Shown piece after piece: positions 920 through 24,656 of a DNA stretch of 64,000 bases (position 1 is the stretch's first letter; each line of letters begins with the position of its first letter). The DNA is from Terebella lapidaria (Eukaryota > Annelida > Polychaeta > Terebellida > Terebellidae). The notes beneath the pieces were generated by a model. It was not told the DNA's origin. It worked only from the letters and a program-made list of their open reading frames with translations, and did not search any database. The stretch is taken from positions 40,372,120 through 40,436,119 of the forward strand of contig OX424563.1 of the NCBI GenBank assembly GCA_949152475.1, read 5' to 3'. Both the position numbers and the translations under genes were made by a program.

Positions 920-1510
920 GGAGCGTCACATGTCCATCGTATGATGGAGCGTCCCATGTCCATCGTACTGTGGAGCATCGCATGTCCATCTTACGGTTGA
1001 GCGTAACGTGTCCATTGTACAGTAAAGCATCGCATGTCCATCATACAGTGGTGCGTCACATGTCCATCGTACGGTGGAGCGTCACATGTCCATCAAAGGG
1101 TGGAGCGTCACATGTCCATCGTACGGTGGAGCCTCGCATGTCCATCTTACAGTGGAGTGTCACATGTCTATCGTTTGATGGAGCGTCGCATGTCCATAGT
1201 ACGGTGGAGCATCGCATGTCCTTCGTACGGTGGAGCGTCGCATGTCCATCCTGCGATGGAGCGTCGCATGTCCATCGTACGGTGGAGCGTCGCATGTCCA
1301 TCTTACGGTGGAGTGTCGCTAGTCCATCGTAAGATTGAGCATCGCATGTCCATCGTACGGTGGAGCGTCACATGTCCATCGTACAGTGGAGCATCCCATG
1401 TCCATCGTACGGAGGAGTGTCAGATGTCCATCGTACGGTGGATTGTCACATGTCCATCGTACGATGGAGCATCCCATGTCCATCGTACGGTGGAGCATCA
1501 CATGTCCATC
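920..1510. repeat. Higher-order block in 26-bp array, copy 1 of a pair
   Basis: About 590 bp of the array, with its specific run of unit variants, recurs near 3233-3823 at an offset of 2313 bp. Marker variants shared by both copies include TTACGGTTGAGCGTAAC, CAGTAAAGCATCGC and TATCGTTTGATGG. Further right the same variant order resumes at an offset of 2235 bp, which is 78 bp (three units) less. This shows a duplication followed by loss or gain of three units. Confidence 0.8.
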
Positions 1511-3232: not shown

Positions 3233-3823
3233 GGAGCGTCACATGTCCATCGTATGATGGAGCGTCCCATGTCCATCGTACTGTGGAGCATCGCATGTCC
3301 ATCTTACGGTTGAGCGTAACGTGTCCATTGTACAGTAAAGCATCGCATGTCCATCATACAGTGGTGCGTCACATGTCCATCGTACGGTGGAGTGTCACAT
3401 GTCCATCATAGGGTGGAGCGTCACATGTCCATCGTACGGTGGAGCCTCGCATGTCCATCTTACAGTGGAGTGTCACATGTCTATCGTTTGATGGAGCGTC
3501 GCATGTCCATAGTACGGTGGAGCATCGCATGTCCTTCGTACGGTGGAGCGTCGCATGTCCATCCTGCGATGGAGCGTCGCATGTCCATCGTACGGTGGAG
3601 CGTCGCATGTCCATCTTACGGTGGAGTGTCGCTAGTCCATCGTAAGATTGAGCATCGCATGTCCATCGTACGGTGGAGCGTCACATGTCCATCGTACAGT
3701 GGAGCATCCCATGTCCATCGTACGGAGGAGTGTCAGATGTCCATCGTACGGTGGATTGTCACATGTCCATCGTACGGTGGAGCATCCCATGTCCATCGTA
3801 CGGTGGAGCATCACATGTCCATC
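3233..3823. repeat. Higher-order block in 26-bp array, copy 2 of a pair
   Basis: This is the partner of the block at about 920-1510. The order of variant units is the same, with only a few substitutions: for example 3392 has GGAGTG where copy 1 has GGAGCG, and 3774 has CGGTGG where copy 1 has CGATGG. The edges are judged by eye and may be off by one or two units. Confidence 0.8.
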
Positions 3824-6599
3824 GTACCGTGGAGCCTCGCATGTCCATCATACGGTGGAGTGTCACATGTCCATCGTACGGTGGAGCGTCCCATGTCCAT
3901 CGTACAATGGAGCATCACATGTCTATCGTACGGTGGAGCATCGCATGTCCATCGTATGATGGAGCGTGAGATGTCCATCGTACTGTGAAGCATCGCATGT
4001 CGATCGTACGATGGAGCGTCACATGTCCATCATACGATAAAGCGTCACATGTCCATCGTACGGTGGAGCATCACATGTCCATCATACGATGGAGCGTCGC
4101 ATGTCCATCGTACAGTGGAGCGTCACATGTCCATCGTACAGTGGAGCCTCGCATGGTCATCGTACGGTGGAGCGTCACATGTCCATCGTACGGTGGAGCA
4201 TCACATGTCCATCCTACTTTGGAGCGTCCCATGTCCATCGTACGGTGGAGCCTCGCATGTCCATCATACGGTGGAGCGTCACATGTCCATCATACAGTGG
4301 AGCGTTGCATGTCCATCGTACAGTGGAGCGTCGCATGTCCATCGTGCAGTGGAGCGTCGCATGTCCATCGTACGGTGGAGCGTCACATGTCCATCGTACG
4401 ATGGAGCATCCCATGTCCATCGTACGGTGGAGCATCACATGTCCATCGTACAGTGGAGCCTCGCATGTCCATCATACGGTGGAGCGTCCCATGTCCATCG
4501 TACGGTTTAGCGTCCCATGTCCATCGTACGGTGGAGCATCGCATATCCATTGTACGGTGGAGCGTCAGATGTCCATCGTACAATGGAGCATCACATGTCT
4601 ATCGTACGGTGGAGCATCGCATGTCCATCGTATGATGGAGCGTGAGATGTCCATCGTATGGTGGAGCATCACATGTCCATCGTACTGTGAAGCATCGCAT
4701 GTCGATCGTACGGTGGAGCGTCACATGTCCATCGTACGATAAAGCGTCGCATGTCCATCGTACGGTGGAGCATCGCATGTCCATCGCACGATGGAGCCTT
4801 GCATGTCAATCATACGGTGGGGCGTCACATGTCCATCGTACAGTGGAGCATCGCATGTCCATCGCACGGTGGAGCGTCAGATGTCCATTGTACGGTGGAG
4901 CATCACATGTCCATCGTACTGTGAAGCATCGCATGTCGATCGTAAGGTGGAGCGTCACATGTCCATCGTACGATAAAGCGTCGCATGTAGATCGTACTGT
5001 GGAGCATCGCATGTCCATCGTACGATGGAGCCTTGCATGTCAATCATACGGTGGGGCGTCACATGTCCATCGTACAGTGGAGCATCGCATGTCCATCGTA
5101 CGGTGGAGCGTCAGATGTCCATCGTATGGTGGAGCGTCACATGTCCATCGTACGATGGAGCGTTGCATGTCCATCATACGGTGGAGCGTCGCATGTCCAT
5201 CGTACGGTGGAGCGTCACATGTCCATCGTACAGTGGAGCGTCACATGTCCATCGTATGGTGGAGCATCGCATGTCTATCGTACGGTGGAGCGTCAGATGT
5301 CCATCGTACGGTGGAGCATCACAGGTCCATCGTACGGTGGAGCATCGCTTGTAAATCGTACGGTGGAGCGTCACATGTCCATCGTACGGTGGAGCGTCCC
5401 GTGTCCATCGTACGATGGAGCGTCGCATGTCCATCTTACGGTGGAGCTTCGCTAGTCCATCGTACGGTGGAGCGTCGCATGTCCATCGTACGATGGAGCA
5501 CCCATGTTCATCGTACGGTGGAGCCTCGCATGTCCATCGTACGGTGGAGCGTCACATGTTCATCATACAGTGGAGCGTCACATGTTCATCGTACAGTGGA
5601 GCATCGCATGTCCATCGTACAGTGGAGCGTCACATGTCCATCATACATAGGAGCGTCCCATGTCCCTCGTACGGTGGAGCATCACATGTCCATCGTACGG
5701 TGGAGCATCGCATGTCGATTGTACGGTGGAGCATCACATGTCCATCGTATGATGGAGCGTCCCATGTCCATCGTACTGTGGAGCGTCACATGTCCATCTT
5801 ACGGTGGAGCTTCGCTAGTCCATCGTACGATGGAGCGTCGCATGTCCATCGTATGGTGGAGCGTCACGTGTCCATCGTACGATGGAGCGTCGAATGTCCA
5901 TCTTACGGTGGAGCTTCGCTAGTCCATCGTATGGTGGAGCGTCGCATGTCCATCTTACGGTGGAGCGTCACATGTCCATCGTACGGTGGAGCGTCACATG
6001 TCCATCCTACGGTGGAGCGTCCCATGTCCATCGTACGGTGGAGAGTCACATGTCCATCGTACGGTGGAGCATAGCATGTCCATCGATGGGTGGAGCGTCA
6101 CATGTCCATCGTACGATGGAGCATCCCATGTCCATCGTACGGTGGAGCGTCACATGTCCATTATACGGTGGAGCATCCCATGTCCATCGTACAGTGGAGC
6201 ATCGCATGTCCATCGTAGAGTGGAGCGTCGCATGTCCATCGTACATTGGAGCGCCCCATGTCCATCGTACGGTGGAGCGTCACATGTCCATCGTACGGTG
6301 GAACCTCGCATGTCGATCGTACGGTGGAGCGTCACATGTCCATCGTACGATGGAGCATCCCATGTCCATCGTACGGTGGAACCTCGCATGTCCATCATAC
6401 AGTGGAGCGTCACATGTCCGTCGTACAGTGGAGCATCGCATGTCCATCGTACAGTGGAGCGTCGCATGTCCATCGTACATTGGAGCGTCCCATGTCCATC
6501 GTACGGTGGAGCGTCACATGTCCATCGTACAGTGGAGCATCACATGTCCATCGTACGGTGGAGCGTCAGATGTCCATCGTACTGTGGAGCGTCACATGT

Positions 6600-8390
6600 C
6601 CATCTTACGGTGGAGCTTCGCTAGTCCATCCTACGGTAGAGCGTCGCATGTCCATCGTACGGTGGAGTGTCACATGTCCATAGTACAGTGGAGCCTTGCA
6701 TGTCCATCATACGGTGGAGCGTCACATGTCCATTGTACAGTGGAGCATCACATGTCCATCGTACGGTGGAGCATCGCATGTCTATCGTACGGTGGAGCGT
6801 CACATGTCCATCTTACGGTGGAACCTCGCATGTCCATCATTCGGTGGAGCGTCACATGTCCATCGTACGGTGGAGCATCTCATGTCCATCGTATGGTGGA
6901 GCGTTAGATGTCCATCGTACAGTGGAGCATCACATGTCAATCGTACTGTGAAGCATCGCATGTCGATCGTACGGTGGAGCGTCTCATGTCCATCGTACGG
7001 TGGAGCGTCAAATGTCCATCGTACGGTGGAGCATAGCATGTCCATCGTATGGTGGAGCATCACCTGTCCATCGTACGATGGAGCATCCCATGTCCATCGT
7101 ACAGTGGAGCGTCACATGTCCATCATATGGTGGAGCGTCACATGTCCATCCTACGGTGGAGCGTCAGATGTCCATCGTACGGTGGAACATCACATGTCCA
7201 TCGTACGATGGAGCATCGCATATCCATCGTACAGTGGAGTGTCACATGTCCATCATACGGTGGAGCATCCCATGTCCATCGTACGATGGAGCGTCGCATG
7301 TCCATCGTACGGTGGAGCGTAACATGTCCATCTTACAGTGGAGCCTCGCATGTCCATCCTTCGGTGGAGCGTCACTTGTCCATCGTACGGTGGAGCGTCG
7401 CATGTCCATCGTACGGTGGAGCGTCACATGTCCATCTTATGGTGGAGCCTCGCATGTCCATCATTCGATGGAGTGTCCCATGTGGAGCGTCACATGTCCA
7501 TCTTACGGTGGAGCTTCGCTAGTCCATCCTACGGTAGAGCGTCGCATGTCCATCGTACGGTGGAGTGTCACATGTCCATTGTACAGTGGAGCCTTGCATG
7601 TCCATCATACGGTGGAGCGTCACATGTCCATTGTACAGTGGAGCATCACATGTCCATCGTACGGTGGAGCATCGCATGTCTATCATACGGTGGAGCGTCA
7701 CATGTCCATCTTACGGTGGAACCTCGCATGTCCATCATTCGGTGGAGCATCACATGTCCATCGTACGGTGGAGCATCTCATGTCCATCGTATGGTGGAGC
7801 GTGAGATGTCCATCGTACAGTGGAGCATCACATGTCAATCGCACTGTGAAGCATCGCATGTCGATCGTACGGTGGAGCGTCTCATGTCCATCGTACGGTG
7901 GAGCGTCAAATGTCCATCGTACGGTGGAGCATAGCATGTCCATCGTATGGTGGAGCATCACCTGTCCATCGTACGATGGAGCATCCCATGTCCATCGTAC
8001 GGTGGAGCGTCACATGACCATCGTACGGTGGAGCGTCACATGTCCATCCTACGGTGGAGCGTCAGATGTCCATCGTACGGTGGAACATCACATGTCCATC
8101 GTACGGTGGAGCATCGCATATCCATCGTACAGTGGAGTGTCACATGTCCATCATACGGTGGAGCATCCCATGTCCATCGTACGATGGAGCGTCGCATGTC
8201 CATCGTACGGTGGAGCGTAACATGTCCATCTTACAGTGGAGCCTCGCATGTCCATCCTTCGGTGGAGCGTCACATGTCCATCGTACGGTGGAGCGTCGCA
8301 TGTCCATCGTACGGTGGAGCGTCACATGTCCATCTTATGGTGGAGCCTCGCATGTCCATCATTCGGTGGAGCGTCCCATGTCCATCGTAC
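6600..8390. repeat. Tandem 898-bp duplication within 26-bp array
   Basis: Two adjacent copies, about 6600-7490 and 7498-8390, share a long ordered run of unit variants at a constant offset of 898 bp. That equals 34 full units (884 bp) plus 14 bp. The extra 14 bp is one shortened unit near 7479 (CCCATGTGGAGCGTC), which lacks about 12 bp and sits at the seam between the copies. This is direct evidence for a duplication whose crossover was out of register with the 26-bp unit. Confidence 0.8.
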
Positions 8391-9179
8391 GGTGGAGCCT
8401 CACATGTCCACCGTGCGGTGGAGCATAGCATGTCCATCGTACGGTGGAGCATCAGATGTCCATCGTACGGTGGAGCATCACATGTCCATCGTACGGTGGA
8501 GCATCACATGTCCATCGTACGGTGGAGCATCGCATGTCGATCGTACGGTGGAGCATAGCATGTCCATCGTACGGTGGAGCGTCAGATGTCCATCGTACGG
8601 TGGAGCATCACATGTCCATCGTTCGGTGGAGCATCGCATGTCGATCGTACGGTGGAGCGTCACATGTCCATCGTACGATGGAGCGTCCCATGTCCATCGT
8701 ACGGTGGAGCCTCGCATGTCCATCATACAGTGGAGCGTCACATGTCCGTCGTACAGTGGAGCATCGCATGTCCATCGTACAGTGGAGCGTCGCATGTCCA
8801 TCGTACATTGGAGCGTCCCATGTCCATCGTACGGTGGAGCGTCACATGTCCATCGTACAGTGGAGCATCACATGTCCATCGTACGGTGGAGCGTCAGATG
8901 TCCATCGTACTGTGGAGCGTCACATGTCCATCTTACGGTGGAGCTTCGCTAGTCCATCCTACGGTAGAGCGTCGCATGTCCATCGTACGGTGGAGTGTCA
9001 CATGTCCATTGTACAGTGGAGCCTTGCATGTCCATCATACGGTGGAGCGTCACATGTCCATTGTACAGTGGAGCGTCACATGTCCATCTTACGATGGAGC
9101 CTCGTATGTCCATCGTACGGTGGAGCGTCACATGTCCATCATACGGTGGAGCATCCCATGTCCATCGTACGATGGAGCA

Positions 9180-10480
9180 TCACATGTCCATCGTACGGTG
9201 GAGCATCGCATGTCGATCGTACGGTGGAGCGTCACATGTCCATCGTACGATGGAGCATCCCATGTCCATCGTACGGTGGAACCTCGCATGTCCATCATAC
9301 AGTGGAGCGTCACATGTCCGTCGTACAGTGGAGCATCGCATGTCCATCGTACAGTGGAGCGTCGCATGTCCATCGTACATTGGAGCGTCCCATGTCCATC
9401 GTACGGTGGAGCGTCACATGTCCATCGTACAGTGGAGCATCACATGTCCATCGTACGGTGGAGCGTCAGATGTCCATCGTACTGTGGAGCGTCACATGTC
9501 CATCTTACGGTGGAGCTTCGCTAGTCCATCCTACGGTAGAGCGTCGCATGTCCATCGTACGGTGGAGTGTCACATGTCCATTGTACAGTGGAGCCTTGCA
9601 TGTCCATCATACGGTGGAGCGTCACATGTCCATTGTACAGTGGAGCATCACATGCCGATCGTACAGTGGAGCGTCAGATGTCCATCGTAAGGTGGAGCGT
9701 CACATGTCCGTCGTACAGTGGAGCATCGCATGTCCATCGTACAGTGGAGCGTCGCATGTCCATCGTACATTGGAGCGTCCCATGTCCATCGTACGGTGGA
9801 GCGTCACATGTCCATCGTACAGTGGAGCATCACATGTCCATCGTACGGTGGAGCGTCAGATGTCCATCTTACGGTGGAGCTTCGCTAGTCCATCCTACGG
9901 TAGAGCGTCGCATGTCCATCGTACGGTGGAGTGTCACATGTCCATTGTACAGTGGAGCCTTGCATGTCCATCATACGGTGGAGCGTCACATGTCCATTGT
10001 ACAGTGGAGCGTCACATGTCCATCGTACGGTGGAGCTTCGCTAGTCCATCCTACGGTAGAGCGTCGCATGTCCATCGTACGGTGGAGTGTCACATGTCCA
10101 TTGTACAGTGGAGCCTTGCATGTCCATCATACGGTGGAGCGTCACATGTCCATTGTACAGTGGAGCGTCACATGTCCATCGTACGGTGGAGCATCGCATG
10201 TCTATCGTACGGTGGAGCGTCACATGTCCATCTTACGGTGGAACCTCGCATGTCCATCATTCGGTGGAGCGTCACATGTCCATCGTACGGTGGAGCATCT
10301 CATGTCCATCGTATGGTGGAGCGTTAGATGTCCATCGTACAGTGGAGCATCACATGTCAATCGTACTGTGAAACATCGCATGTCGATCGTACGGTGGAGC
10401 GTCTCATGTCCATCGTACGGTGGAGCGTCACATGTCCATCGTATGGTAGAGCATAGCATGTCCATCGTACGGTGGAGCGT
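9180..10480. repeat. 1.3-kb block of 26-bp array, copy 1
   Basis: This stretch matches about 12532-13832 at a constant offset of 3352 bp, with the same rare unit variants (for example CATGTCCGTCGTACAGTGG and CATGCCGATCG). Further right, about 10751-11339 matches 14025-14613 at 3274 bp, again 78 bp less. About 11355-11858 matches 15369-15872 at 4014 bp. The right half of the array was therefore built by nested kilobase-scale duplications. Confidence 0.8.
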
Positions 10481-12531
10481 CACATGTCCATCGTATGGTA
10501 GAGCATAGCATGTCCATCGTATGGTGGAGCATCACATGTCCATCGTACGATGGAGCATCCCATGTCCATCGTACGATGGAGCATCCCATGTCCATCGTAC
10601 GGTGGAGCATCACATGTCCATCGTACGGTGGAGCGTCACATGTCCATCCTACGGTGGAGCGTCAGATGTCCATCGTACGGTGGAACATCACATGTCCATC
10701 GTACGGTGGAGCATCGCATATCCATCGTACAGTGGAGTGTCACATGTCCATCATACGGTGGAGCATCCCATGTCCATCGTACGATGGAGCGTCGCATGTC
10801 CATCGTACGGTGGAGCATAACATGCCCATCTTACAGTGGAGCCTCGCATGTCCATCCTTCGGTGGAGCATCACATGTCCATCCTTCGGTGGAGCGTCACA
10901 TGTCCATCGTACGGTGGAGCGTCGCATGTCCATCGTACGGGGGAGCGTCACATGTCCATCTTATGGTGGAGCCTCGCATGTCCATCATTCGGTGGAGCGT
11001 CCCATGTCCATTGTACAATGGAGCCTTGCATGTCCATCATACGGTGGAGCGTCACATGTCCATTGTACAGTGGAGCGTCACATGTCCATCTTACGGTGGA
11101 GCCTCGTATGTCCATCGTACGGTGGAGCGTCACATGTCCATCGTACAGTGGAGCTTTGCATGTCCATCATACAGTGGAGCGTCACATGTCCATCGTACGG
11201 TGGAGCGTCACATGTCCATATACGGTGGAGCGTCTCATGTCCATCGTACGGTGGAGCGTCACATGTCCATTATACGGTGGAGCGTCCCATGTCCATCGTA
11301 CGGTGGAGCGTCACATGTCTATCGTACGCTGGAGCATAGCATGTCCATCGTACGGTGGAGCGTCAGATGTCCATCGTACGGTGGAGCGTCACATGTCCAT
11401 CTTACGGTGGAGCTTCGCTAGTCCATCCTACGGTAGAGCGTCGCATGTCCATCGTACGGTGGAATGTCACATGTCCATTGTACAGTGGAGCCTTGCATGT
11501 CCATCATACGATGGAGCGTCACATGTCCATTGTACAGTGGAGCATCACATGTCCATCGTACGGTGGAGCATCGCATGTCTATCGTACGGTGGAGCGTCAC
11601 ATGTCCATCTTACGGTGGAGCCTCGTATGTCCATCGTACGGTGGAGCGTCACATGTCCATCGTACAGTGGAGCTTTGCATGTCCATCATACAGTGGAGCG
11701 TCACATGTCCATCGTACGGTGGAGCGTCACATGTCCATATACGGTGGAGCGTCTCATGTCCATCGTACGGTGGAGCGTCACATGTCCATTATACGGTGGA
11801 GCGTCCCATGTCCATCGTACGGTGGAGCATCACATGTCTATCGTACGCTGGAGCATAGCATGTCCATCGTACGGTGGAGCGTCAGATGTCCATCGTACTG
11901 TGGAGCGTCACATGTCCATCTTACGGTGGAGCTTCGCTAGTCCATCCTACGGTAGAGCGTCGCATGTCCATCGTACGGTGGAGTGTCACATGTCCATTGT
12001 ACAGTGGAGCCTTGCATGTCCATCATACGGTGGAGCGTCACATGTCCATTGTACAGTGGAGCGTCACATGTCCATCTTACGATGGAGCCTCGTATGTCCA
12101 TCGTACGGTGGAGCGTCACATGTCCATCGTACAGTGGAGCTTTGCATTTCCATCATACAGTGGAGCGTCACATGTCCATCGTACGGTGGAGCGTCACATG
12201 TCCATCATACAGTGGAGCGTCACATGTCCATCGTACGGTGGAGCGTCACATGTCCATCATACGGTGGAGCATCCCATGTCCATCATACGATTGAGCGTCG
12301 CATGTCCATCATACGGTGGAGCGTCACATGTCCATCTTACGGTGGAGCCTCGCATGTCCATCATTCAGTATAGCGTCACATGTCCATCGTACGATGGAGC
12401 GTCACATGTCCATTGTACGGTGGAGCGTCCCATGTCCATCGTACGGTGGAGCGTCACATGTCCATCGTACGGTGGAGCATAGCATGTCCATCGTACGGTG
12501 GAGCGTCAGATGTCCATCGTACGATGGAGCA

Positions 12532-13832
12532 TCACATGTCCATCGTACGGTGGAGCATCGCATGTCGATCGTACGGTGGAGCGTCACATGTCCATCGTAC
12601 GATGGAGCATCCCATGTCCATCGTACGGTGGAACCTCGCATGTCCATCATACAGTGGAGCGTCACATGTCCGTCGTACAGTGGAGCATCGCATGTCCATC
12701 GTACAGTGGAGCGTCGCATGTCCATCGTACATTGGAGCGTCCCATGTCCATCGTACGGTGGAGCGTCACATGTCCATCGTACAGTGGAGCATCACATGTC
12801 CATCGTACGGTGGAGCGTCAGATGTCCATCGTACTGTGGAGCGTCACATGTCCATCTTACGGTGGAGCTTCGCTAGTCCATCCTACGGTAGAGCGTCGCA
12901 TGTCCATCGTACGGTGGAGTGTCACATGTCCATTGTACAGTGGAGCCTTGCATGTCCATCATACGGTGGAGCGTCACATGTCCATTGTACAGTGGAGCAT
13001 CACATGCCGATCGTACAGTGGAGCGTCAGATGTCCATCGTAAGGTGGAGCGTCACATGTCCGTCGTACAGTGGAGCATCGCATGTCCATCGTACAGTGGA
13101 GCGTCGCATGTCCATCGTACATTGGAGCGTCCCATGTCCATCGTACGGTGGAGCGTCACATGTCCATCGTACAGTGGAGCATCACATGTCCATCGTACGG
13201 TGGAGCGTCAGATGTCCATCTTACGGTGGAGCTTCGCTAGTCCATCCTACGGTAGAGCGTCGCATGTCCATCGTACGGTGGAGTGTCACATGTCCATTGT
13301 ACAGTGGAGCCTTGCATGTCCATCATACGGTGGAGCGTCACATGTCCATTGTACAGTGGAGCGTCACATGTCCATCGTACGGTGGAGCTTCGCTAGTCCA
13401 TCCTACGGTAGAGCGTCGCATGTCCATCGTACGGTGGAGTGTCACATGTCCATTGTACAGTGGCGCCTTGCATGTCCATCATACGGTGGAGCGTCACATG
13501 TCCATTGTACAGTGGAGCGTCACATGTCCATCGTACGGTGGAGCATCGCATGTCTATCGTACGGTGGAGCGTCACATGTCCATCTTACGGTGGAACCTCG
13601 CATGTCCATCATTCGGTGGAGCGTCACATGTCCATCGTACGGTGGAGCATCTCATGTCCATCGTATGGTGGAGCGTTAGATGTCCATCGTACAGTGGAGC
13701 ATCACATGTCAATCGTACTGTGAAACATCGCATGTCGATCGTACGGTGGAGCGTCTCATGTCCATCGTACGGTGGAGCGTCACATGTCCATCGTTTGGTA
13801 GAGCATAGCATGTCCATCGTATGGTGGAGCAT
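12532..13832. repeat. 1.3-kb block of 26-bp array, copy 2
   Basis: This is the partner of the block at about 9180-10480. The two copies share variant order almost unit for unit, with rare single differences (for example CAGTGGCGCC at about 13458 against CAGTGGAGCC in copy 1). The similarity is far higher than between neighbouring 26-bp units, so the duplication is younger than most of the unit divergence. Confidence 0.8.
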
Positions 13833-15938
13833 CACATGTCCATCGTACGATGGAGCATATCATGTCCATCGTACGGTGGAGCATCACATGTCCATCGTAC
13901 GGTGGAGCGTCACATGTCCATCCTACGGGGGAGCGTCAGATGTCCATCGTACGGTGGAACATCACATGTCCATCGTACGGTGGAGCATCGCATATCCATC
14001 GTACGGTGGAGTGTCACATGTCCATCGTACGGTGGAGCATCCCATGTCCATCGTACGATGGAGCGTCGCATGTCCATCGTACGGTGGAGCATAACATGTC
14101 CATCTTACAGTGGAGCCTCGCATGTCCATCCTTCGGTGGAGCATCACATGTCCATCCTTCGGTGGAGCGTCACATGTCCATCGTACGGTGGAGCATCGAA
14201 TGTCCATCGTACGGTGGAGCGTCACATGTCCATCTTATGGTGGAGCCTCGCATGTCCATCATTCGGTGGAGCGTCCCATGTCCATTGTACAGTGGAGCCT
14301 TGCATGTCCATCATACGGTGGAGCGTCACATGTCCATTGTACAGTGGAGCGTCACATGTCCATCTTACGGTGGAGCCTCGTATGTCCATCGTACGGTGGA
14401 GCGTCACATGTCCATCGTACAGTGGAGCTTTGCATGTCCATCATACAGTGGAGCGTCACATGTCCATCGTACGGTGGAGCGTCACATGTCCATATACGGT
14501 GGAGCATCTCATGTCCATCGTACGGTGGAGCGTCACATGTCCATTGTACGGTGGAGCGTCCCATGTCCATCGTACGGTGGAGCGTCACATGTCTATCGTA
14601 CGCTGGAGCATAGCATGTCCATCGTACGGTGGAGCGTCAGATGTTCATCGTACGGTGGAGCGTCACATGTCCATCTTACGGTGGAGCTTCGCTAGTCCAT
14701 CCTACGGTAGAGCGTCGCATGTCCATCGTACGGTGGAGTGTCACATGTCCATTGTACAGTGGAGCCTTGCATGTCCATCATACGGTGGAGCGTCACATGT
14801 CCATTGTACAGTGGAGCATCACATGTCCATCGTACGGTGGAGCATCGCATGTCCATCTTACAGTGGAGCCTCGCATGTCCATCTTTCGGTGGAGCGTCAC
14901 ATGTCCATCGTACGGTGGAGCGTCACATGTCCATCTTATGGTGGAGCCTCGCATGTCCATCATTCGGTGGAGCGTCCCATGTGGAGCGTCACATGTCCAT
15001 CTTACGGTGGAGCTTCGCTAGTCCATCCTACGGTAGAGCGTCGCATGTCCATCGTACGGTGGAGTGTCACATGTCCATTGTACAGTGGAGCCTTGCATGT
15101 CCATCGTACGGTGGAGCGTCACATGTCCATCGTACAGTGGAGCTTTGCATGTCCATCATACAGTGGAGCGTCACATGTCCATCGTACGGTGGAGCGTCAC
15201 ATGTCCATATACGGTGGAGCGTCACATGTCCATATACGGTGGAGCGTCTCATGTCCATCGTACGGTGGAGCGTCACATGTCCATTATACGGTGGAGCGTC
15301 CCATGTCCATCGTACGGTGGAGCGTCACATGTCTATCGTACGCTGGAGCATAGCATGTCCATCGTACGGTGGAGCGTCAGATGTCCATCGTACGGTGGAG
15401 CGTCACATGTCCATCTTACGGTGGAGCTTCGCTAGTCCATCCTACGGTAGAGCGTCGCATGTCCATCGTACGGTGGAGTGTCACATGTCCATTGTACAGT
15501 GGAGCCTTGCATGTCCATCATACGGTGGAGCGTCACATGTCCATTGTACAGTGGAGCATCACATGTCCATCGTACGGTGGAGCATCGCATGTCTATCGTA
15601 CGGTGGAGCGTCACATGTCCATCTTACGGTGGAGCCTCGTATGTCCATCGTACGGTGGAGCGTCACATGTCCATCGTACAGTGGAGCTTTGCATGTCCAT
15701 CATACAGTGGAGCGTCACATGTCCATCGTACGGTGGAGCGTCACATGTCCATATACGGTGGAGCGTCTCATGTCCATCGTACGGTGGAGCGTCACATGTC
15801 CATTATACGGTGGAGCGTCCCATGTCCATCGTACGGTGGAGCGTCACATGTCTATCGTACGCTGGAGCATAGCATGTCCATCGTACGGTGGAGCGTCAGA
15901 TGTCCACCGTACTGTGGAGCGTCACATGTCCATCTTAC

Positions 15939-15945: not shown

Positions 15946-16825
15946 AAATTACCTTAATAACAACAAAATCTTCTCAAAATCTCAAGTTCTCAGTACATTG
16001 TACTTCTTCAAAATTCTTCAAAATTACCTTAATAACAACAAAATCTTCTCAAAATCTCAAGTTCTCAGTACATTGTACTTCTTCAAAATTCTTCAAAATT
16101 ACCTTAATAACAACAAAATCTTCTCAAAATCTCAAGTTCTCAGTACATTGTACTTCTTCAAAATTCTTCAAAATTACCTTAATAACAACAAAATCTTCTC
16201 AAAATCTCAAGTTCTCAGTACATTGTACTTCTTCAAAATTCTTCAAAATTACCTTAATAACAACAAAATCTTCTCAAAATCTCAAGTTCTCAGTACATTG
16301 TACTTCTTCAAAATTCTTCAAAATTACCTTAATAACAACAAAATCTTCTCAAAATCTCAAGTTCTCAGTACATTGTACTTCTTCAAAATTCTTCAAAATT
16401 ACCTTAATAACAACAAAATCTTCTCAAAATCTCAAGTTCTCAGTACATTGTACTTCTTCAAAATTCTTCAAAATTACCTTAATAACAACAAAATCTTCTC
16501 AAAATCTCAAGTTCTCAGTACATTGTACTTCTTCAAAATTCTTCAAAATTACCTTAATAACAACAAAATCTTCTCAAAATCTCAAGTTCTCAGTACATTG
16601 TACTTCTTCAAAATTCTTCAAAATTACCTTAATAACAACAAAATCTTCTCAAAATCTCAAGTTCTCAGTACATTGTACTTCTTCAAAATTCTTCAAAATT
16701 ACCTTAATAACAACAAAATCTTCTCAAAATCTCAAGTTCTCAGTACATTGTACTTCTTCAAAATTCTTCAAAATTACCTTAATAACAACAAAATCTTCTC
16801 AAAATCTCAAGTTCTCAGTACATTG

Positions 16826-16850
16826 TACTTCTTCAAAATTACCTTAATAA
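16826..16850. repeat. Short 65-bp unit in the 75-bp array
   Basis: Here the doubled CTTCAAAATT is present only once, so this unit is 65 bp. The likely cause is slippage between the two 10-bp copies. The change moves the downstream array into a different frame. That is why a nominal open frame running in from the 26-bp array switches repeat sequence here and still stays open. Confidence 0.9.
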
Positions 16851-17065
16851 CAACAAAATCTTCTCAAAATCTCAAGTTCTCAGTACATTGTACTTCTTCA
16901 AAATTCTTCAAAATTACCTTAATAACAACAAAATCTTCTCAAAATCTCAAGTTCTCAGTACATTGTACTTCTTCAAAATTCTTCAAAATTACCTTAATAA
17001 CAACAAAATCTTCTCAAAATCTCAAGTTCTCAGTACATTGTACTTCTTCAAAATTCTTCAAAATT

Positions 17066-18825
17066 ACCTCAATAACAACAAAATCTTCTCAAAATCTCAA
17101 GTTCTCAGTACATTGTACTTCTTCAAAATTCTTCAAAATTACCTCAATAACAACAAAATCTTCTCAAAATCTCAAGTTCTCAGTACATTGTACTTCTTCA
17201 AAATTCTTCAAAATTACCTCAATAACAACAACATCTTCTCAAAATCTCAAGTTCTCAGTACATTGTACTTCTTCAAAATTCTTCAAAATTACCTTAATAA
17301 CAACAAAATCTTCTCAAAATCTCAAGTTCTCAGTACATTGTACTTCTTCAAAATTCTTCAAAATTACCTTAATAACAACAAAATCTTCTCAAAATCTCAA
17401 GTTCTCAGTACATTGTACTTCTTCAAAATTCTTCAAAATTACCTTAATAACAACAAAATCTTCTCAAAATCTCAAGTTCTCAGTACATTGTACTTCTTCA
17501 AAATTCTTCAAAATTACCTTAATAACAACAAAATCTTCTCAAAATCTCAAGTTCTCAGTACATTGTACTTCTTCAAAATTTTTCAAAATTACCTTAATAA
17601 CAACAAAATCTTCTCAAAATCTCAAGTTCTCAGTACATTGTACTTCTTCAAAATTCTTCAAAATTACCTTAATAACAACAAAATCTTCTCAAAATCTCAA
17701 GTTCTCAGTACATTGTACTTCTTCAAAATTCTTCAAAATTACCTTAATAACAACAAAATCTTCTCAAAATCTCAAGTTCTCAGTACATTGTACTTCTTCA
17801 AAATTCTTCAAAATTACCTTAATAACAACAAAATCTTCTCAAAATCTCAAGTTCTCAGTACATTGTACTTCTTCAAAATTCTTCAAAATTACCTTAATAA
17901 CAACAAAATCTTCTCAAAATCTCAAGTTCTCAGTACATTGTACTTCTTCAAAATTCTTCAAAATTACCTTAATAACAACAAAATCTTCTCAAAATCTCAA
18001 GTTCTCAGTACATTGTACTTCTTCAAAATTCTTCAAAATTACCTTAATAACAACAAAATCTTCTCAAAATCTCAAGTTCTCAGTACATTGTACTTCTTCA
18101 AAATTCTTCAAAATTACCTTAATAACAACAAAATCTTCTCAAAATCTCAAGTTCTCAGTACATTGTACTTCTTCAAAATTCTTCAAAATTACCTTAATAA
18201 CAACAAAATCTTCTCAAAATCTCAAGTTCTCAGTACATTGTACTTCTTCAAAATTCTTCAAAATTACCTTAATAACAACAAAATCTTCTCAAAATCTCAA
18301 GTTCTCAGTACATTGTACTTCTTCAAAATTCTTCAAAATTACCTTAATAACAACAAAATCTTCTCAAAATCTCAAGTTCTCAGTACATTGTACTTCTTCA
18401 AAATTCTTCAAAATTACCTTAATAACAACAAAATCTTCTCAAAATCTCAAGTTCTCAGTACATTGTACTTCTTCAAAATTCTTCAAAATTACCTTAATAA
18501 CAACAAAATCTTCTCAAAATCTCAAGTTCTCAGTACATTGTACTTCTTCAAAATTCTTCAAAATTACCTTAATAACAACAAAATCTTCTCAAAATCTCAA
18601 GTTCTCAGTACATTGTACTTCTTCAAAATTCTTCAAAATTACCTCAATAACAACAAAATCTTCTCAAAATCTCAAGTTCTCAGTACATTGTACTTCTTCA
18701 AAATTCTTCAAAATTACCTCAATAACAACAAAATCTTCTCAAAATCTCAAGTTCTCAGTACATTGTACTTCTTCAAAATTCTTCAAAATTACCTCAATAA
18801 CAACAACATCTTCTCAAAATCTCAA
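17066..18825. repeat. 1575-bp (21-unit) duplication inside the 75-bp array
   Basis: A run of three ACCTC-variant units whose third unit also reads AACAACATC starts at 17066. An identical run starts at 18641. The spacing is 1575 bp, exactly 21 units. The shared three-unit signature shows that at least this run was copied as one block of 21 units or more. The TTTCAAAATT unit near 17581 has no partner one offset later, so it either arose after the copying or lies outside the copied block. Confidence 0.75.
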
Positions 18826-19660
18826 GTTCTCAGTACATTGTACTTCTTCAAAATTCTTCAAAATTACCTTAATAACAACAAAATCTTCTCAAAATCTCAA
18901 GTTCTCAGTACATTGTACTTCTTCAAAATTCTTCAAAATTACCTTAATAACAACAAAATCTTCTCAAAATCTCAAGTTCTCAGTACATTGTACTTCTTCA
19001 AAATTCTTCAAAATTACCTTAATAACAACAAAATCTTCTCAAAATCTCAAGTTCTCAGTACATTGTACTTCTTCAAAATTCTTCAAAATTACCTTAATAA
19101 CAACAAAATCTTCTCAAAATCTCAAGTTCTCAGTACATTGTACTTCTTCAAAATTCTTCAAAATTACCTTAATAACAACAAAATCTTCTCAAAATCTCAA
19201 GTTCTCAGTACATTGTACTTCTTCAAAATTCTTCAAAATTACCTTAATAACAACAAAATCTTCTCAAAATCTCAAGTTCTCAGTACATTGTACTTCTTCA
19301 AAATTCTTCAAAATTACCTTAATAACAACAAAATCTTCTCAAAATCTCAAGTTCTCAGTACATTGTACTTCTTCAAAATTCTTCAAAATTACCTTAATAA
19401 CAACAAAATCTTCTCAAAATCTCAAGTTCTCAGTACATTGTACTTCTTCAAAATTCTTCAAAATTACCTTAATAACAACAAAATCTTCTCAAAATCTCAA
19501 GTTCTCAGTACATTGTACTTCTTCAAAATTCTTCAAAATTACCTTAATAACAACAAAATCTTCTCAAAATCTCAAGTTCTCAGTACATTGTACTTCTTCA
19601 AAATTCTTCAAAATTACCTTAATAACAACAAAATCTTCTCAAAATCTCAAGTTCTCAGTA

Positions 19661-19920
19661 TCCTTACAACTCATCCTCTCAACTAACACCATCAGATACC
19701 AGTTATCACACAATCACAAGGGACCACTACCCATTTCCAATAATTCCACTTTAATACCTTCCCTAATCAGCAATATCAATACTTCTTTTCCTCAAACTAA
19801 TTAATACCTAACAAATCAAACTAAAAGCTAAATCTTTTTTTATCCATTACCAGAAATAATTTAAACCAGTAAATTACCAACAAAAATATTCCTAAAATAT
19901 TCTCCTTAACTTCTGGAATC
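19661..19920. other. AT-rich spacer after the 75-bp array, no gene seen
   Basis: This is unique, AT-rich sequence with CT-rich stretches and a T run near 19833. The open frame that enters from the satellite ends at 19804 and has no coding character of its own. I see no RNA gene, promoter or terminal repeat here. It may be the 5' part of the retroelement or older flanking DNA. Confidence 0.5.
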
Positions 19921-20106
19921 CGATCACGGGGTGCCTTCAATATATCCAGTTTTGGACCACAGTATCGGGGGTTGGAGCGGGGCCTGATCGCGCCTGCTCG
20001 TACACTGGAGCCGACAGTTTGGCCGACTGGTGACAGCAGAACGTTCTTGCTTCGCCCAACTTCAGGTGCCAGGTTACAACCCTTTCTATATATAGTTGTC
20101 ACCCTG
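19921..20106. repeat. GC-rich block A of a diverged direct-repeat pair, possible promoter repeat
   Basis: This GC-rich island in AT-rich DNA is collinear with the block at 20206-20388 at an offset of about 281-288 bp. Shared parts in order are CGATCA, GGGGT, TTCAATAT, the core CTGGAGCCGACAGTT plus GGCCGACTGG, TCTTGCTTC, and ATATAGTT followed by CACCCT. Block A has the TATA-like string TATATATAG at 20087-20095 and a 10-bp palindrome AGAACGTTCT at about 20039. The paired arrangement upstream of a retroelement could be a duplicated 5' UTR or promoter, but no function is shown. A 101-residue open frame on the minus strand covers it and has no sign of being a gene. Confidence 0.55.
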
Positions 20107-20205
20107 GACCCGGCCAGACTCAACAAAATATCTCTCCAAAATTAAAAATTTTAAAAATTAAAAAACAATTCCAGTACTAAATTTCGGTCATAACACTTCC
20201 TTCCT

Positions 20206-20388
20206 CGATCAAATGTGGGGTATTTTCAATATGCGGCCTTATCCACTGGGACCCTTGGGGTTAGGGGGAGCATCGGTACATCTTCTCGCACTCTGGAGCC
20301 GACAGTTGGCCGACTGGAGGCAGTCGATTGCTCTTGCTTCACCTGACACCAAACCCCGAACCACAGCCCCATATAGTTACCACCCTAC
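20206..20388. repeat. GC-rich block B of a diverged direct-repeat pair
   Basis: This is the partner of the block at 19921-20106. The best conserved segment is the core CTGGAGCCGACAGTTGGCC near 20293. ATATAGTTACCACCCT at 20371-20386 corresponds to ATATAGTTGTCACCCT in block A. The rest has diverged by substitutions and small indels, so the duplication is much older than the nearby satellite copies. The reverse-complement reading gives no recognised RNA gene. Confidence 0.55.
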
Positions 20389-20914
20389 ATGAAAATCATG
20401 GGAGCAACCAAATTACAACTTAAACATATAAAATAATCATATAAAACTTATATCCAATCCAATCCCTTACCCCCTCCCTCACTAAATCTTCTTTTCCATT
20501 TCAGCTATGTACATACCAACTACTATTATATTCAATTTCAGCTAATGTATAAAGACTCTTCAACCCTGTCATTATTTATTTGCCTCTAAATTATTTATCT
20601 ACAACATACCCAAAACAAATTATTGTACTCATCACTGTATATACTATATATATCATATGTGTACTACACAAATACTGCACAATATTATATCTTCTATTGT
20701 ACCCCATCAGGTCATAACAACATGTTACCTAACCTCGGTTATCAAAACATTGTATTAAGTCACTCCATCAATCACACTATCTTTGCCATGCAACTTATTG
20801 TACCTAAATATCATTTATTATGCATCTTTACTGCAAAATCCCTGTAAACACATGTCAAGGGCTCAAACCCACTGTAATGTTATCTTAACATTCCCCATTC
20901 AGCATGGTCATATA
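20389..20914. other. AT-rich spacer, nothing recognised
   Basis: About 525 bp of AT-rich unique sequence with runs such as TATATACTATATATATCATA near 20640. One 74-codon open frame (20623-20847) has a composition typical of translated AT-rich noncoding DNA and no recognisable domain. I find no tRNA, no repeat and no clear regulatory site. Confidence 0.6.
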
Positions 20915-20991
20915 TTTCAATTGTCGGTGTTAGTTTAACAACTATCCCCTACCATGTTCACCCAAGCCTTTCAATTGTCAGTGTTAGTTTA
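20915..20991 (+). repeat. Pair of 23-bp direct repeats, 54 bp apart
   Basis: Copies at 20915-20937 and 20969-20991 begin TTTCAATTGTC and end GTGTTAGTTTA. They differ at one position (G in the first, A in the second). Between them lies unique AT-rich sequence. They sit about 145 bp upstream of the ribozyme motif and may belong to the same terminal or leader repeat. No role can be assigned. Confidence 0.75.
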
Positions 20992-21133
20992 AGATTTATA
21001 ATCCACTCTTCATTGTAACCAGTAGTCAGCTATACCACTCAGTAGCTTTACAATCACCTACCCAGCCAGTCATGCATATCGCCAATTTTGTACTTAAACC
21101 CCCTATTTTACCATCAATATCATTAATAAATTT

Positions 21134-21174
21134 TGCCTCTGAAGAGTTCCCTGAGGAACGAAAGCGCTAAGGCA
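21134..21174 (+). ncRNA. Type I hammerhead ribozyme motif, PLE-type with minimal stem III
   Basis: All parts of a hammerhead core are present in order. Stem I pairs TGCCT (21134-21138) with AGGCA (21170-21174), 5 bp. The first core strand CTGAAGA (21139-21145) matches CUGANGA. Stem II is GTTCC-CTGA-GGAAC (21146-21159), a perfect 5-bp stem with a 4-base loop. GAA follows at 21160-21162. The stem III segment AGCGCT (21163-21168) is self-complementary with almost no loop, and H17 is A at 21169, so cleavage is expected between 21169 and 21170. Hammerheads with very short stem III are known in Penelope-like elements and are thought to act as dimers, where a self-complementary stem III segment helps. 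Such ribozymes lie in the terminal repeats of PLEs and process the element's RNA. Activity here is inferred from the fold only. Confidence 0.85.
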
Positions 21175-21984
21175 TATTCTAGGCACAACTATATCAGTCT
21201 TGTTATTTTCTGCAAAAAAACAAATACAGCTTCATCATTATCAGCCATTAGGAATAAGTTTTATATACCGGATTATCACATACAAGGGATTCACCTACAA
21301 AAGGATTGGATCTCTCACCCAAACCGATAAGTATCACTTACCTATTTCATGTACAATAGTCGCTCGATCTAAGTGTTACCCGGCCCGTCCCCAAAATTCT
21401 CTTTCGACCATTAAAGATACCTAGTAACCTTTTCATCCAAATTGCCCACTGGGGCTATATTTCAACACCTAGTAATTCATATTGCGGAAACGAGAGCCAT
21501 TACTCTCAATCTTTACTTTTCTCTCGACCGTTAATGTGTTAGAACGGGTTGAACCCTGAGCCCAGGTCCCCCCACCCAACACTGATCGAGCGATACCCAA
21601 AATAGGCCAATATATAAACACTAAGCACTTTTACTGTCTATCCTCAACCTTGTCTTAAGTTAAGGGTATCAAATAGTTCCCATCTTAGCACAATACTCTA
21701 GCTTAGCCTACCAACATTCTTCAGCCAAAAGTTTACCTAATTGGGCATAGCCAATAGCTTAAACACAATATTCTATACCACAAAGTCATCTAGTACCAAT
21801 ATTTTGTCTAATTTTAACTCATAATTGTCCAATCCAAATCTTAATTTAAAAAATTCTCCATAATTAAAACCTCACAAAAAATATCCTATTAGGATTATTC
21901 AAAACTAAAAATAAAATAAAATAACTTTAATAAAAAAATCTGTAAAACACTCCCCGAACTAAAAAGTTAGGTAATTCTATCAAA
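21175..21984 (+). other. Leader between hammerhead ribozyme and ORF1
   Basis: About 810 bp without a credible gene. Small open frames overlapping the ribozyme and leader (21133-21330 and 21200-21424) show no domain. Weakly similar pieces recur, such as TTTCGACCATTAA near 21401 and TCTCGACCGTTAA near 21529. TCGCTCGATC near 21359 is nearly the reverse complement of GATCGAGCGA near 21585. The last 140 bp before ORF1 are strongly A-rich. The simplest reading is the 5' untranslated leader of the PLE, downstream of its ribozyme. Confidence 0.5.
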
Positions 21985-23784
21985 ATGAATCTTCGTAATA
22001 AAAAAGTTCTAAACCAACCTAAAACCAAAACCAAAGTCGCTGCTAAGACAACGTCCAAGGCAAGTCCAAAGACCGACTCAAAGTCTACGACAAGCCCCAA
22101 GACTGAGTCGACGCCGACTTCTATCTATTCCTTCTTAACCCCTTCGGGTATCAAGGATAAAGCCCGTCGGGCCATCTCTCTTCTGTTCTCTTCAAGTCCG
22201 GACTCCTCACTAGAGTCAGGCACCTCCTCTCCTCCTCCTCCCTCCCCATCCTCTGGGTCACCCTCACCCTCGTGTGTCGGTTTCCCTCTGGATGCCTCTG
22301 ACTCCCTGTTTCCCCAACGGGAGTCACCCTCTTACTCTTACATTCCATTCTCGGAATATTCCTGTCCGGACTCTCTTGTCCCCCCTCCCCGGAAGAACAC
22401 TCCTAGGCCTCCGGACCTTAAGTGTTCTCCGGACCTCCCCCCAGCCAGTCCTTTCGACTGGGGGGTCCTTCCACCACCCTTCCCTATCCTTTCTACTCCC
22501 TCTGATCTTTCACCACCGCCAGGGTTTGACAAGCTCCCTCGGACGCTCCCATCCCCGGCGGTGATCTCATCTCGGGTGCTAGCCACCACCTACAACGTCT
22601 CACCGGACCTCTTCACCGGTGATTCGCTACTTGTAAAACCTAAACCTAAAACCTGCACCGCAACCACAAACACCTCCACTGACACACATGACATTCCATA
22701 CATACCTCACTCTCACCTCCCAACACCCCAGGTTCACAAACTTGACACGCCACCCATACCCGTGGGTGACTATCCTCACCACCTACACCAACACATAACT
22801 CACCTACGCACATACATCACCAAAGCTCTAAAACTTAAGCTACAAATGAAGGAGATGGACGAGGTCATGAATGTAATTGAACCTTCGTTCATCAACTTCG
22901 AACGTCTTGAAATCCGGTCGGACATCGCCAAATCCAACATGCACCTACTCACTCAAATGCACCTCCAGTTCCGCTGGGGGCGCCAACAACTCATTACATC
23001 CATGCTAAACCAAGAAATAAACCAGCTTATGGACGAATTCTATCGCCAAGCTGTCACCACCCCCAACCCGTCCCTCGTGACCCAATGGTCACTGTTCACG
23101 GCTCATCAATTCTTCAAAAGGGACAATCAAAGCAATATGCAACAATTAAACCAGCAAATCATTAGCTATTTCATGAATTACACCTTACCAAACAGACATA
23201 GGCAGGACAACTTACTCTCTAAAATGCTTTCGACCCTAAATCACGAAATCACACCGCAAACATCACCCTCCAACCATGACACCTCAGGCAGCTTCACCAC
23301 ACCAAAACGGACTTCAAAACAAACCACACCCATAGCAGAGACACCGATGAAGGTCCAAAATAAATTTGCACCTTTGTCGGCTCTCCCCCAAAGGGAACCT
23401 CGTGTCCCCCGCGGTCAACGTCAACCAAAGGCCTCTGAGCCACCTACTCCTCTAAAACCCCAAAACAAGAACAAGCCTAGCCTTAAACCTTCAGGTAGCC
23501 GTAGCCAGCACCAACAATTAGCCCAACCTTCAAAGCCCCATAAACCTAAACCATTAGGCAGACCACCACCCTACTCTAAAAACAATTCCACAGTATTCAT
23601 TGGGGACTCAAATGCTGCCCGACTCTCTCCCCACAGTTTGTCGTTCCCGGGGGCAACCGCACTGGACATTGCCCGGCAGCTTACAACGAACCCCAGCTAC
23701 ATGAACAGGATTCTACACCCTCGCCGTGGGATCCGCGGACATCCAGTCCACACCACCCCCTCAAGCAGCCACCAACATAATTAG
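21985..23784 (+). CDS. Retroelement ORF1: Lys/Pro/Ser-rich protein with start of SGNH esterase-like domain
   Basis: A 599-codon frame starts at the first ATG after an A-rich leader. Residues 1-45 are very Lys/Thr/Ser-rich, as in a nucleic-acid-binding or nuclear-targeting tail. Residues about 47-75 hold a predicted amphipathic helix (GIKDKARRAISLLF). Residues 75-260 are Pro/Ser-rich and low complexity. Residues about 261-420 are mostly helical and rich in Leu, Gln and Met, and could oligomerise like LINE ORF1 coiled coils. Residues 430-530 are basic, Pro/Gln-rich linker. At 537-558 VFIGDSNAARLSPHSLSFPG matches SGNH block I, with GDS at 540-542 giving the likely nucleophile Ser542. The last 30 or so residues look out of frame with the domain. 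The family assignment rests on the block I motif plus the piece that follows; there is no database confirmation. Confidence 0.6.
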   Translation: MNLRNKKVLNQPKTKTKVAAKTTSKASPKTDSKSTTSPKTESTPTSIYSFLTPSGIKDKARRAISLLFSSSPDSSLESGTSSPPPPSPSSGSPSPSCVGFPLDASDSLFPQRESPSYSYIPFSEYSCPDSLVPPPRKNTPRPPDLKCSPDLPPASPFDWGVLPPPFPILSTPSDLSPPPGFDKLPRTLPSPAVISSRVLATTYNVSPDLFTGDSLLVKPKPKTCTATTNTSTDTHDIPYIPHSHLPTPQVHKLDTPPIPVGDYPHHLHQHITHLRTYITKALKLKLQMKEMDEVMNVIEPSFINFERLEIRSDIAKSNMHLLTQMHLQFRWGRQQLITSMLNQEINQLMDEFYRQAVTTPNPSLVTQWSLFTAHQFFKRDNQSNMQQLNQQIISYFMNYTLPNRHRQDNLLSKMLSTLNHEITPQTSPSNHDTSGSFTTPKRTSKQTTPIAETPMKVQNKFAPLSALPQREPRVPRGQRQPKASEPPTPLKPQNKNKPSLKPSGSRSQHQQLAQPSKPHKPKPLGRPPPYSKNNSTVFIGDSNAARLSPHSLSFPGATALDIARQLTTNPSYMNRILHPRRGIRGHPVHTTPSSSHQHN

Positions 23785-24085
23785 AACAGCTCTCTCCATC
23801 CGCGCCATCACCAGACTTCCCGTTGCCCTCCTCCCAGTTCCAGGACCACCCCCAGGCTCTCATCCTAATCTTACACTCCGGACCCAGCAACTCAACAGAA
23901 TCATCTTCAACCAAACTAATCGCCAACACCTCCCAATAGTTCTCCACGACCCCCCAACCAACTGTTTAACTGTGTCAAGCTCAAACCTCTACACTGGCAC
24001 AGCAGTCCAGTCCATCTTAAGCTGCACAGACAGACTCAACCTTCATCCTATACCGGAAAATGGAGGTCCACAGGTTTTTATATAA
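23726..24085 (+). pseudogene. C-terminal piece of SGNH esterase-like domain of ORF1
   Basis: This open frame of about 119 codons overlaps the end of the 599-codon frame. Its first residues, VGSADI, fit SGNH block III (usual form GxND, here with Ala in place of Asn). Its end, DRLNLHPIPENGG, fits block V, where an Asp and a His three residues apart complete the catalytic triad. Having blocks I, III and V in the right order and spacing across the two pieces is the main support for an SGNH domain. The apparent start is only the first GTG in the frame, so this is not an independent gene. SGNH domains in retroelement ORF1 proteins are known in CR1-type LINEs and in rotifer telomeric PLEs, where lipid or membrane roles have been suggested. 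Confidence 0.5.
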
Positions 24086-24656
24086 GCCCTGCCCGGAATC
24101 CGTACGGGAAGGGCACACATCTCCAATTCCGGATCCCCCAAGTTAGACCACTAAAAGATACCCCAACGGACAGTATCCAACCCTCTCCCACTATAGATTC
24201 TCCTCCAGACAACCCCATCCGACTCAACCGACTCAACCCCACGGCGACCTCGACCTGCGATCCACCCAAAATAGACTGTTATGAAAATATCTTAGAAACT
24301 GCTGTACAGGATAATCTACCTCCCCTCAGTCCCCTGTCAGCAATAGTAAGTGTCACTAATTTTGACTTAAATATTCCAAACAGCCAGTCAGCGTTAGAAG
24401 TAATTAGCTCTCAAAATAGGTCTAAAACTCAATATTTCTTAAAACCGCCAGCTCTCAAAAACAATAAGTCAGGCCAGACTTCGAATCATATTTGCAATTT
24501 ATCAAACCTTCTTATCACCAAATCAATTAGCTCACTATTATCGAAAGGCTTAAAATTTATCCCCCACTTTTCCAAACCCACCAAATTTACTAAAGCACAG
24601 GAAGGGACCCAAGCACGCAGAAAAATCATCTTGACCAAAATTATGCATAACAAACC
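24086..24656 (+). pseudogene. N-terminal fragment of Penelope-like reverse transcriptase ORF
   Basis: An open frame without an early ATG runs through this stretch and into the first satellite unit. Its upstream limit is about 23920, overlapping the ORF1 end. It reads PPDNPIRLNRLNP... and reaches, at 24496-24570, NLSNLLITKSISSLLSKG followed by LKFIPHF, then KAQEGTQARRKIILTK. The pattern of a short NLS segment, LLSKGLxFxP and a following basic helix is the known entry region of PLE reverse transcriptases, just before the fingers. None of the catalytic RT motifs are present because satellite DNA replaces the rest. The lack of a start codon suggests that expression depended on the ORF1 region upstream. 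I recognise the motif from memory of the family and did not align it. Confidence 0.6.

Follow-up and report, generated by a model that had tools for sequence, protein, structure and literature searches.

Lunse, Weinberg and Breaker reportedly found that small hammerhead variants of Penelope-like retrotransposons cleave RNA as dimers, and Cervera and De la Pena are said to have described, in 2014, minimal hammerheads in the pseudo-LTRs of Penelope-like elements (PLEs). Passages of three papers (PMC7761336, PMC7229834, PMC6155905) likewise treat PLE hammerheads of the minimal type I kind, and dimer cleavage, as already known. A tandem arrangement is stated in part of PMC6466107 to be necessary in eukaryotes for cleavage by dimers, and a section of PMC11167929 describes PLEs as forming partial tandems with pseudo-LTRs. 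In review text, PLE hammerheads are called widespread and their role unknown (PMC7761336). In a lizard PLE, cleavage required protein, and insertion in vitro was unaffected by mutations that abolished cleavage (PMC11167929), findings that weigh against the reading preferred below. Terminons and Athena appear, in excerpts of PMC6431247 and PMC5408684, as telomeric PLEs that lack an endonuclease and carry hammerheads and GDSL ORFs.

Here we describe a very probable hammerhead from Terebella lapidaria. By the window we mean the whole 64,000-nucleotide stretch of DNA that was analysed (C9:40372120-40436119, in a genome of 761.6 Mb in 438 contigs). It consists mostly of satellite, and a fragment of about 5 kb between the arrays carries the ribozyme:

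1-15938: array of a 26-bp satellite
15946-19660: array of a 75-bp satellite
19661-24656, forward strand: 5' fragment of a PLE between two satellite arrays, its outer limits being those of the arrays
24657-64000: array of a 158-bp satellite

The 158-bp array, 99% uniform across its 249 copies, abuts the PLE fragment. Upstream of the hammerhead, gapped similarity between the window and a related copy on contig C17 continues for about 1.1 kb; therefore, the element extends in that direction. The sequence upstream of the ribozyme further contains a pair of related segments, each about 63 bp long (19994-20056 and 20282-20343, 81% identical).

We put at roughly 0.85 the probability that positions 21134-21174 hold a minimal type I PLE hammerhead that evolved to cut as a dimer; its cleavage, its dimer action and its role are what we infer. 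It is very probably a genuine PLE hammerhead in a dead copy of the element, and it adds to the PLE hammerheads already known to cleave as dimers. The parts of the ribozyme are as follows:

21134-21174, forward strand: type I hammerhead with complete core (from sequence, Markov control, family covariance model and pair counts)
21125-21133, forward strand: conserved sequence of AATAAATTT type on the 5' side of stem I (from alignment of copies)
21134-21138 (TGCCT) with 21170-21174 (AGGCA), forward strand: stem I, 5 bp (from sequence)
21139-21145, forward strand: CTGAAGA, first part of the core (C3 U4 G5 A6 N7 G8 A9; from sequence)
21146-21150 (GTTCC) with 21155-21159 (GGAAC), forward strand: stem II, 5 bp (from sequence)
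21151-21154, forward strand: CTGA, loop of stem II (from sequence)
21160-21162, forward strand: GAA of the core (from sequence)
21163-21168, forward strand: AGCGCT, minimal self-complementary stem III (from co-fold and palindromes in relatives)
21169, forward strand: H17, an A (from sequence)
21169/21170, forward strand: predicted cleavage site after H17 (from the hammerhead rule)

CTGAAGA (21139-21145) corresponds to C3 to A9 in the standard numbering of the hammerhead core, and the core rule places the predicted cut after H17, here between 21169 and 21170. All the traits of a type I hammerhead (a CUGANGA...GAA core, stems I to III, UH before the cut and an open stem I) are present, with stem III existing as a dimer pairing only. 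The earlier note on this DNA had proposed a complete type I hammerhead at 21134-21174, and every core position and pair that it named can be read in the sequence; the cut that it predicted at 21169/21170 agrees with the placement of H17 by this rule. The AGCGCT of the window is too short for a hairpin and could form a 6-bp helix between two copies. The AATAAATTT-type stretch (21125-21133) is perhaps an internal loop or outer arm of stem I.

The hammerhead resembles the dimeric PLE hammerheads, as described in passages of PMC7761336 and PMC6466107, in its PLE context, its minimal stem III and its presumed dimer action through a palindromic stem III; it differs in that no tandem copy was found at the loci covered here, and in that three of its relatives (C7, C3 and C17b, below) have an extra A between A9 and G10.1. 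With the pseudo-LTR hammerheads (PMC7761336 and PMC6155905) it shares the class of element and the minimal stem III; it differs in that a pseudo-LTR position is at most conjectural here. The plus-strand hammerhead of CChMVd has an extra A10 at the same place in the core as the C7, C3 and C17b copies (excerpt of PMC3705267), but CChMVd is a viroid and the window copy has no extra A.

Coding sequence of PLE type had been claimed to lie downstream on the same strand, and indeed an ORF1-like frame and the start of an RT frame were found there, the window being without the RT itself:

21985-23784, forward strand: ORF1-like PLE frame (ATG at 21985; open from stop to stop from 21946, 612 aa), with homologues on C17, C4, C9, C15 and C7
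23705-24085, forward strand: coding homology continuing in another frame, with a weak SGNH/GDSL-like match
23920-24656, forward strand: start of an RT-type reading frame with GLKFIP (57% to the C7 relative over 49 aa, where RT sequence comes next)

The GLKFIP stretch is, we assume, typical of PLE RTs. The Pfam indication for 23705-24085 was Lipase_GDSL_2 with an E of 0.097, below the cut-off, and no Pfam family reached the cut-off in the coding region of the window downstream of the ribozyme. The element ends at 24656, where the 158-bp satellite cuts it off before the RT. Because of this truncation the window copy is a relic, and since the RT is absent it cannot move by its own protein. RT sequence is kept in the C7 and C4 relatives and was not seen in the C17 copy. 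That of C7 showed 33-40% to the RT frame of another PLE of this genome, locus L041, and matched Pfam RVT_1 with an E of 1.2e-4 (22.3 bits, cut-off 29.6). By eye, no GIY-YIG domain follows at the end of the C7 RT frame, and loss is possible in this interrupted and old copy; the RT frame of L041 continues, again by eye, into GIY-YIG, and a C4 fragment matches that part (Pfam GIY-YIG, E 2.3e-4, just below the cut-off). A GIY-YIG endonuclease is not obligatory for a PLE, and PLEs without it exist. A LINE-like ORF (L030, 4853-7159, opposite strand, by eye) interrupts the RT region of the C7 PLE. On C4, the same PLE is partially duplicated in tandem at L028/L029 (C4:40080966-40085437), where the hammerhead region is missing, and a GIY-YIG-like fragment (E 2.3e-4) lies upstream of this duplication on the other strand.

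Searches of this genome at the DNA and protein level revealed related loci on C17, C4, C7, C9 and C15, and the ribozyme or its remains were found at six loci, namely the window and the following five:

C7:29702621-29702647, reverse strand: C7 copy, core intact, extra A between A9 and G10.1
C3:15096607-15096633, reverse strand: C3 copy, core intact, extra A between A9 and G10.1
C17:23445329-23445355, reverse strand: C17b copy, extra A, mutated core CCGAAGA, H17 a G
C9:31288964-31289017, reverse strand: C9c copy (locus L034), mutated core UUGAAUA, located by covariance model
C17:8577963: C17 copy, 5' half lost and 3' half kept

The earlier note had expected related copies to conserve both the core and the stem pairings. 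The pairings were conserved throughout (65 of 65, five copies), and the core gave a mixed picture, being intact in three of the six copies (window, C7, C3), mutated in C17b and C9c and without its 5' half in C17. The extra A occurs in three of the six (C7, C3, C17b), and the window copy is without it. When the upstream and leader stretches of the window and C7 were compared, the ribozyme alone aligned (44 bp, and 55 bp in a second comparison). The C4 copies begin 3' of the hammerhead, and no ribozyme remains in them. A pattern with the extra A and up to 3 mismatches gave 3 matches in the genome against 1 control match; the corresponding pattern without the extra A gave 3 matches against 7 in its reversed-pattern control, and only the exact window match was counted. 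Neither mismatch pattern (up to 3) yielded an additional convincing site. At L038, a by-eye inspection showed an insertion of about 180 bp (around 1300-1490) bordering the C3 hammerhead on its 3' side, with an apparent 10-bp target-site duplication at its flanks and seemingly encoding the end of an SGNH-type protein. L041, a 4.9-kb tandem PLE, had no hammerhead by rule or by model; a GGA...TCCGAAAC stretch that precedes its ORF1, noted by eye, is perhaps a decayed hammerhead.

Conservation of the pairs was assessed in an alignment of five copies (window, C7, C3, C17b, C9c), the C17 copy being omitted from the counts as its 5' half is lost. This alignment was made by a model that contained stems I and II, so that these two stems were fitted to it, and stem III was outside the model. 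All 65 of the 65 pair cells were paired, and both sides had changed in 7 of the 13 pairs. On four of five pair measures none of 500 shuffles scored as high, and on the fifth, the number of pair types, 33 of 500 did. When the partners were slid, pairing fell to 20-48%. In a plain alignment of the window, C7 and C3 alone, 39 of 39 cells were paired, and the 4 pairs changed on both sides were reached in 8 of 500 shuffles. The C7 and C3 ribozymes are identical at 54 of 55 bases, and because they differ at this one base alone the independent lineages are few. A hand-placed alignment of the copies was used beside these pair counts; plain MAFFT alignments were discarded, as they put the gap of the window copy in the wrong place or moved C17b out of register. 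We built a covariance model, R1, trained on the window, C7 and C3, which covers stems I and II and leaves stem III unmodelled. It scored the window copy, itself one of the three training sequences, at 75.7 bits, and in 194,529 bases from 16 sources it recovered two copies on which it had not been trained (L035, 40.3 bits, E 1.7e-6; L034, 37.6 bits, E 8.3e-6).

Stem III differs among the copies and is a palindrome in all of them: AGCGCT in the window and C17, AGTACT in C7 and C3, AGGCCT in C17b and ACGCGT in C9c. None of the four palindromes closes a hairpin alone, and each pairs with itself in another copy. That stem III has changed and yet stayed self-complementary is evolutionary evidence for selected pairing between copies. 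When two window copies were co-folded without constraint, the minimum was the exact double hammerhead (-31.1 kcal/mol against 2 x -12.1 kcal/mol), with stem I and six stem III pairs formed between the copies and stem II formed within each. Placing all 256 inner tetramers in the window context gave the exact double hammerhead for 8, comprising 7 of the 16 palindromes and 1 of the 240 others, and the natural tetramers GCGC, GUAC, GGCC and CGCG are all among those 7. We considered this count of exact folds a useful control; the mean energy gain separated the palindromes poorly (-4.7 vs -3.8), with 6 of the 256 inserts gaining as much as that of the window, and was rejected as a control. In their native context, the unconstrained dimer minima of C7 and C3 were not the exact double hammerhead: in C7 stem I took another register and stem III was lengthened, and in C3 two monomer-like folds were joined through outer pairs. 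The proposal that the palindromic stem III suits dimer action thus gains modelled support from the four palindromes and the co-fold control. By the rule and R1, a single hammerhead was found per locus in the fetched flanks (194,529 bases of 16 sources), and a more distant or decayed tandem partner, or an intact element at some other place in the genome, may exist.

The same note had placed the hammerhead in a terminal repeat of the element. This was not borne out, the window having one hammerhead and no second repeat unit that we could find. Similarly, no repeat of the hammerhead region and no complete PLE unit were found within the loci examined. Comparison of the C7 3'UTR with three regions upstream of hammerheads gave scores reached by 98, 162 and 168 of 200 shuffles. 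A short-repeat likeness of GGCGTCC type, noticed by eye between the C7 3'UTR and upstream sequence, was dropped as shuffles scored as high. With Terminons and Athena the present elements have in common the hammerhead, a C7 RT frame that ends without GIY-YIG and a weak GDSL-like match in a frame of the window; they differ in that the loci lie away from contig ends, the hammerhead is 5' of ORF1 and none of the telomeric repeats tried is near the hammerheads. A Terminon would have C-rich telomeric repeats beside its hammerhead; the joined loci and positions 1-25000 of the window had no run of (TTAGGG)3 or (TTAGG)4 on either strand.

A look-alike that arose by chance, with no ribozyme history, would be consistent with the results from Rfam. 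In the window, all Rfam families stayed below their gathering scores, and the best match for the hammerhead was HH9, with 17.5 bits against 52 and an E of 0.15 in 501 bases searched. Rfam RF02275 gave no match across the genome among the 58 of 33,118 first-look candidates that were scored. The Rfam hammerhead models gave nothing for the C7, C3 and C17b copies, no match at E up to 10 in 241 bases around the C7 copy and none at E up to 1 for L041, L038, L039, L040 and L002. The covariance search suggested by the earlier note thus returned no significant match, and a family-specific model was required; the gathering score is a limit of detection and not a defining trait of type I hammerheads. Chance would also agree with the unremarkable monomer fold of the window hammerhead (z -1.00, 31 of 200 shuffles as good), and part-motifs do arise in this way: the first strict pattern, that of the window stem II, gave 3 matches and 0 in its reversed control, and 2 of the 3 lay in an unrelated duplicated protein-coding gene on C1 and were rejected as chance. 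Against it, all pairs are kept in five copies on four contigs, with 7 of 13 changed on both sides. Moreover, a script requiring the core, stem II of at least 4 pairs, GAA, UH and stem I of at least 4 pairs matched once in the 5-kb element fragment, at the window site, and not at all on one strand of 20,000,400 bases of first-order Markov sequence derived from that fragment. We therefore consider chance very improbable. Equally remote is the idea that the hammerhead belongs to a metazoan retrozyme, that is, to short tandem repeats with a hammerhead each, and not to a PLE. Tandem satellites do flank the element, and most classical animal type I hammerheads are said, in part of PMC7229834, to sit in such repeats, but R1 run over the whole window found one site and none in the satellites, and the flanking homology is PLE leader at four other places, together with ORF1. 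From the viroid-like extra core A of some copies, and from the failure of the Rfam models, it would seem that genome annotations record too few of these ribozymes.

The hammerhead could instead belong to the PLE and act as a monomer aided by a protein of the element, the palindrome being incidental. The protein-assisted hammerhead of the lizard PLE PAc (PMC11167929) offers a precedent, and no tandem partner was found in the flanks searched; we still judge this unlikely, as four different palindromes occur, each of them one of the 8 inserts (of 256) with which the window sequence folds into the double hammerhead. In the dimer reading that we prefer, two copies, on one or on two transcripts, would be held together by the palindromic stem III and by a stem I formed between them, and each would cut after A21169. 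The RNA downstream of the cut would then begin with a 5'-OH, and its leader would run for about 815 nt to the start of ORF1. In an active element, such cutting would trim or separate the transcripts of neighbouring units. It is an even question whether the motif now has no ribozyme role anywhere in this genome and is what remains, in decay, of a subfamily now extinct, which is compatible with its having evolved as a dimer. The copies are few, with an intact core at 3 loci, the RT is lost in the window and not seen in C17, and the RT region of C7 carries an insertion; on the other hand, C7 and C3 have intact and nearly identical ribozymes.

Downstream of the ribozyme the leader contains a further structured region:

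21359-21594, forward strand: domain of 236 nt lying 3' of the ribozyme, strongly folded, with the long-range closing helix TCGCTCGATC/GATCGAGCGA

Its fold (-62.0 kcal/mol, z -4.75) was equalled by none of 200 shuffles, and the same was true of the C17 copy of the domain (-65.9 kcal/mol, z -4.63, 0 of 200). Among 37 sliding frames over 19681-22080, this domain was the only one with z below -3, and the C7 and C3 leaders had no such frame in 16 frames each. Its sequence is conserved in C17 and partly in C9c (70%) and C17b (68%). RNAalifold on the domain in four copies gave an unfavourable covariation term (+0.62), in an alignment too short to include the 3' arm of the closing helix, and so lends the fold no support from covariation; Rfam gave nothing for 21359-21594 up to an E of 2. 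We tentatively consider, as a doubtful extension, a PLE lineage without GIY-YIG with a 5' leader that would work as an RNA device in two parts, in which a hammerhead active only as a dimer, in some copies with the viroid-like extra core A, is followed about 190 nt later by the 236-nt folded domain. Pairing of two element RNAs might then trigger cleavage and free the structured leader for translation or priming.

Some neighbouring PLE sequences carry other domains. NADAR is found in Gypsy and Tx1 elements according to part of PMC12477816, and a limited literature search, covering texts in part, gave Gypsy and Tx1 for it and none in PLEs. L041 (C6:35416500-35421600) is a PLE in head-to-tail arrays with a unit of 4,918 bp, as judged from match spacing, and Pfam identifies NADAR in its first ORF (2103-3827, reverse strand) with an E of 6e-16; the C-terminal part of this ORF looks SGNH-like by eye. 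A second NADAR and GDSL-like ORF, with both Pfam matches below the cut-off, lies at 3914-4960 of L031 (forward strand), upstream of the C7 hammerhead and on the opposite strand to it.
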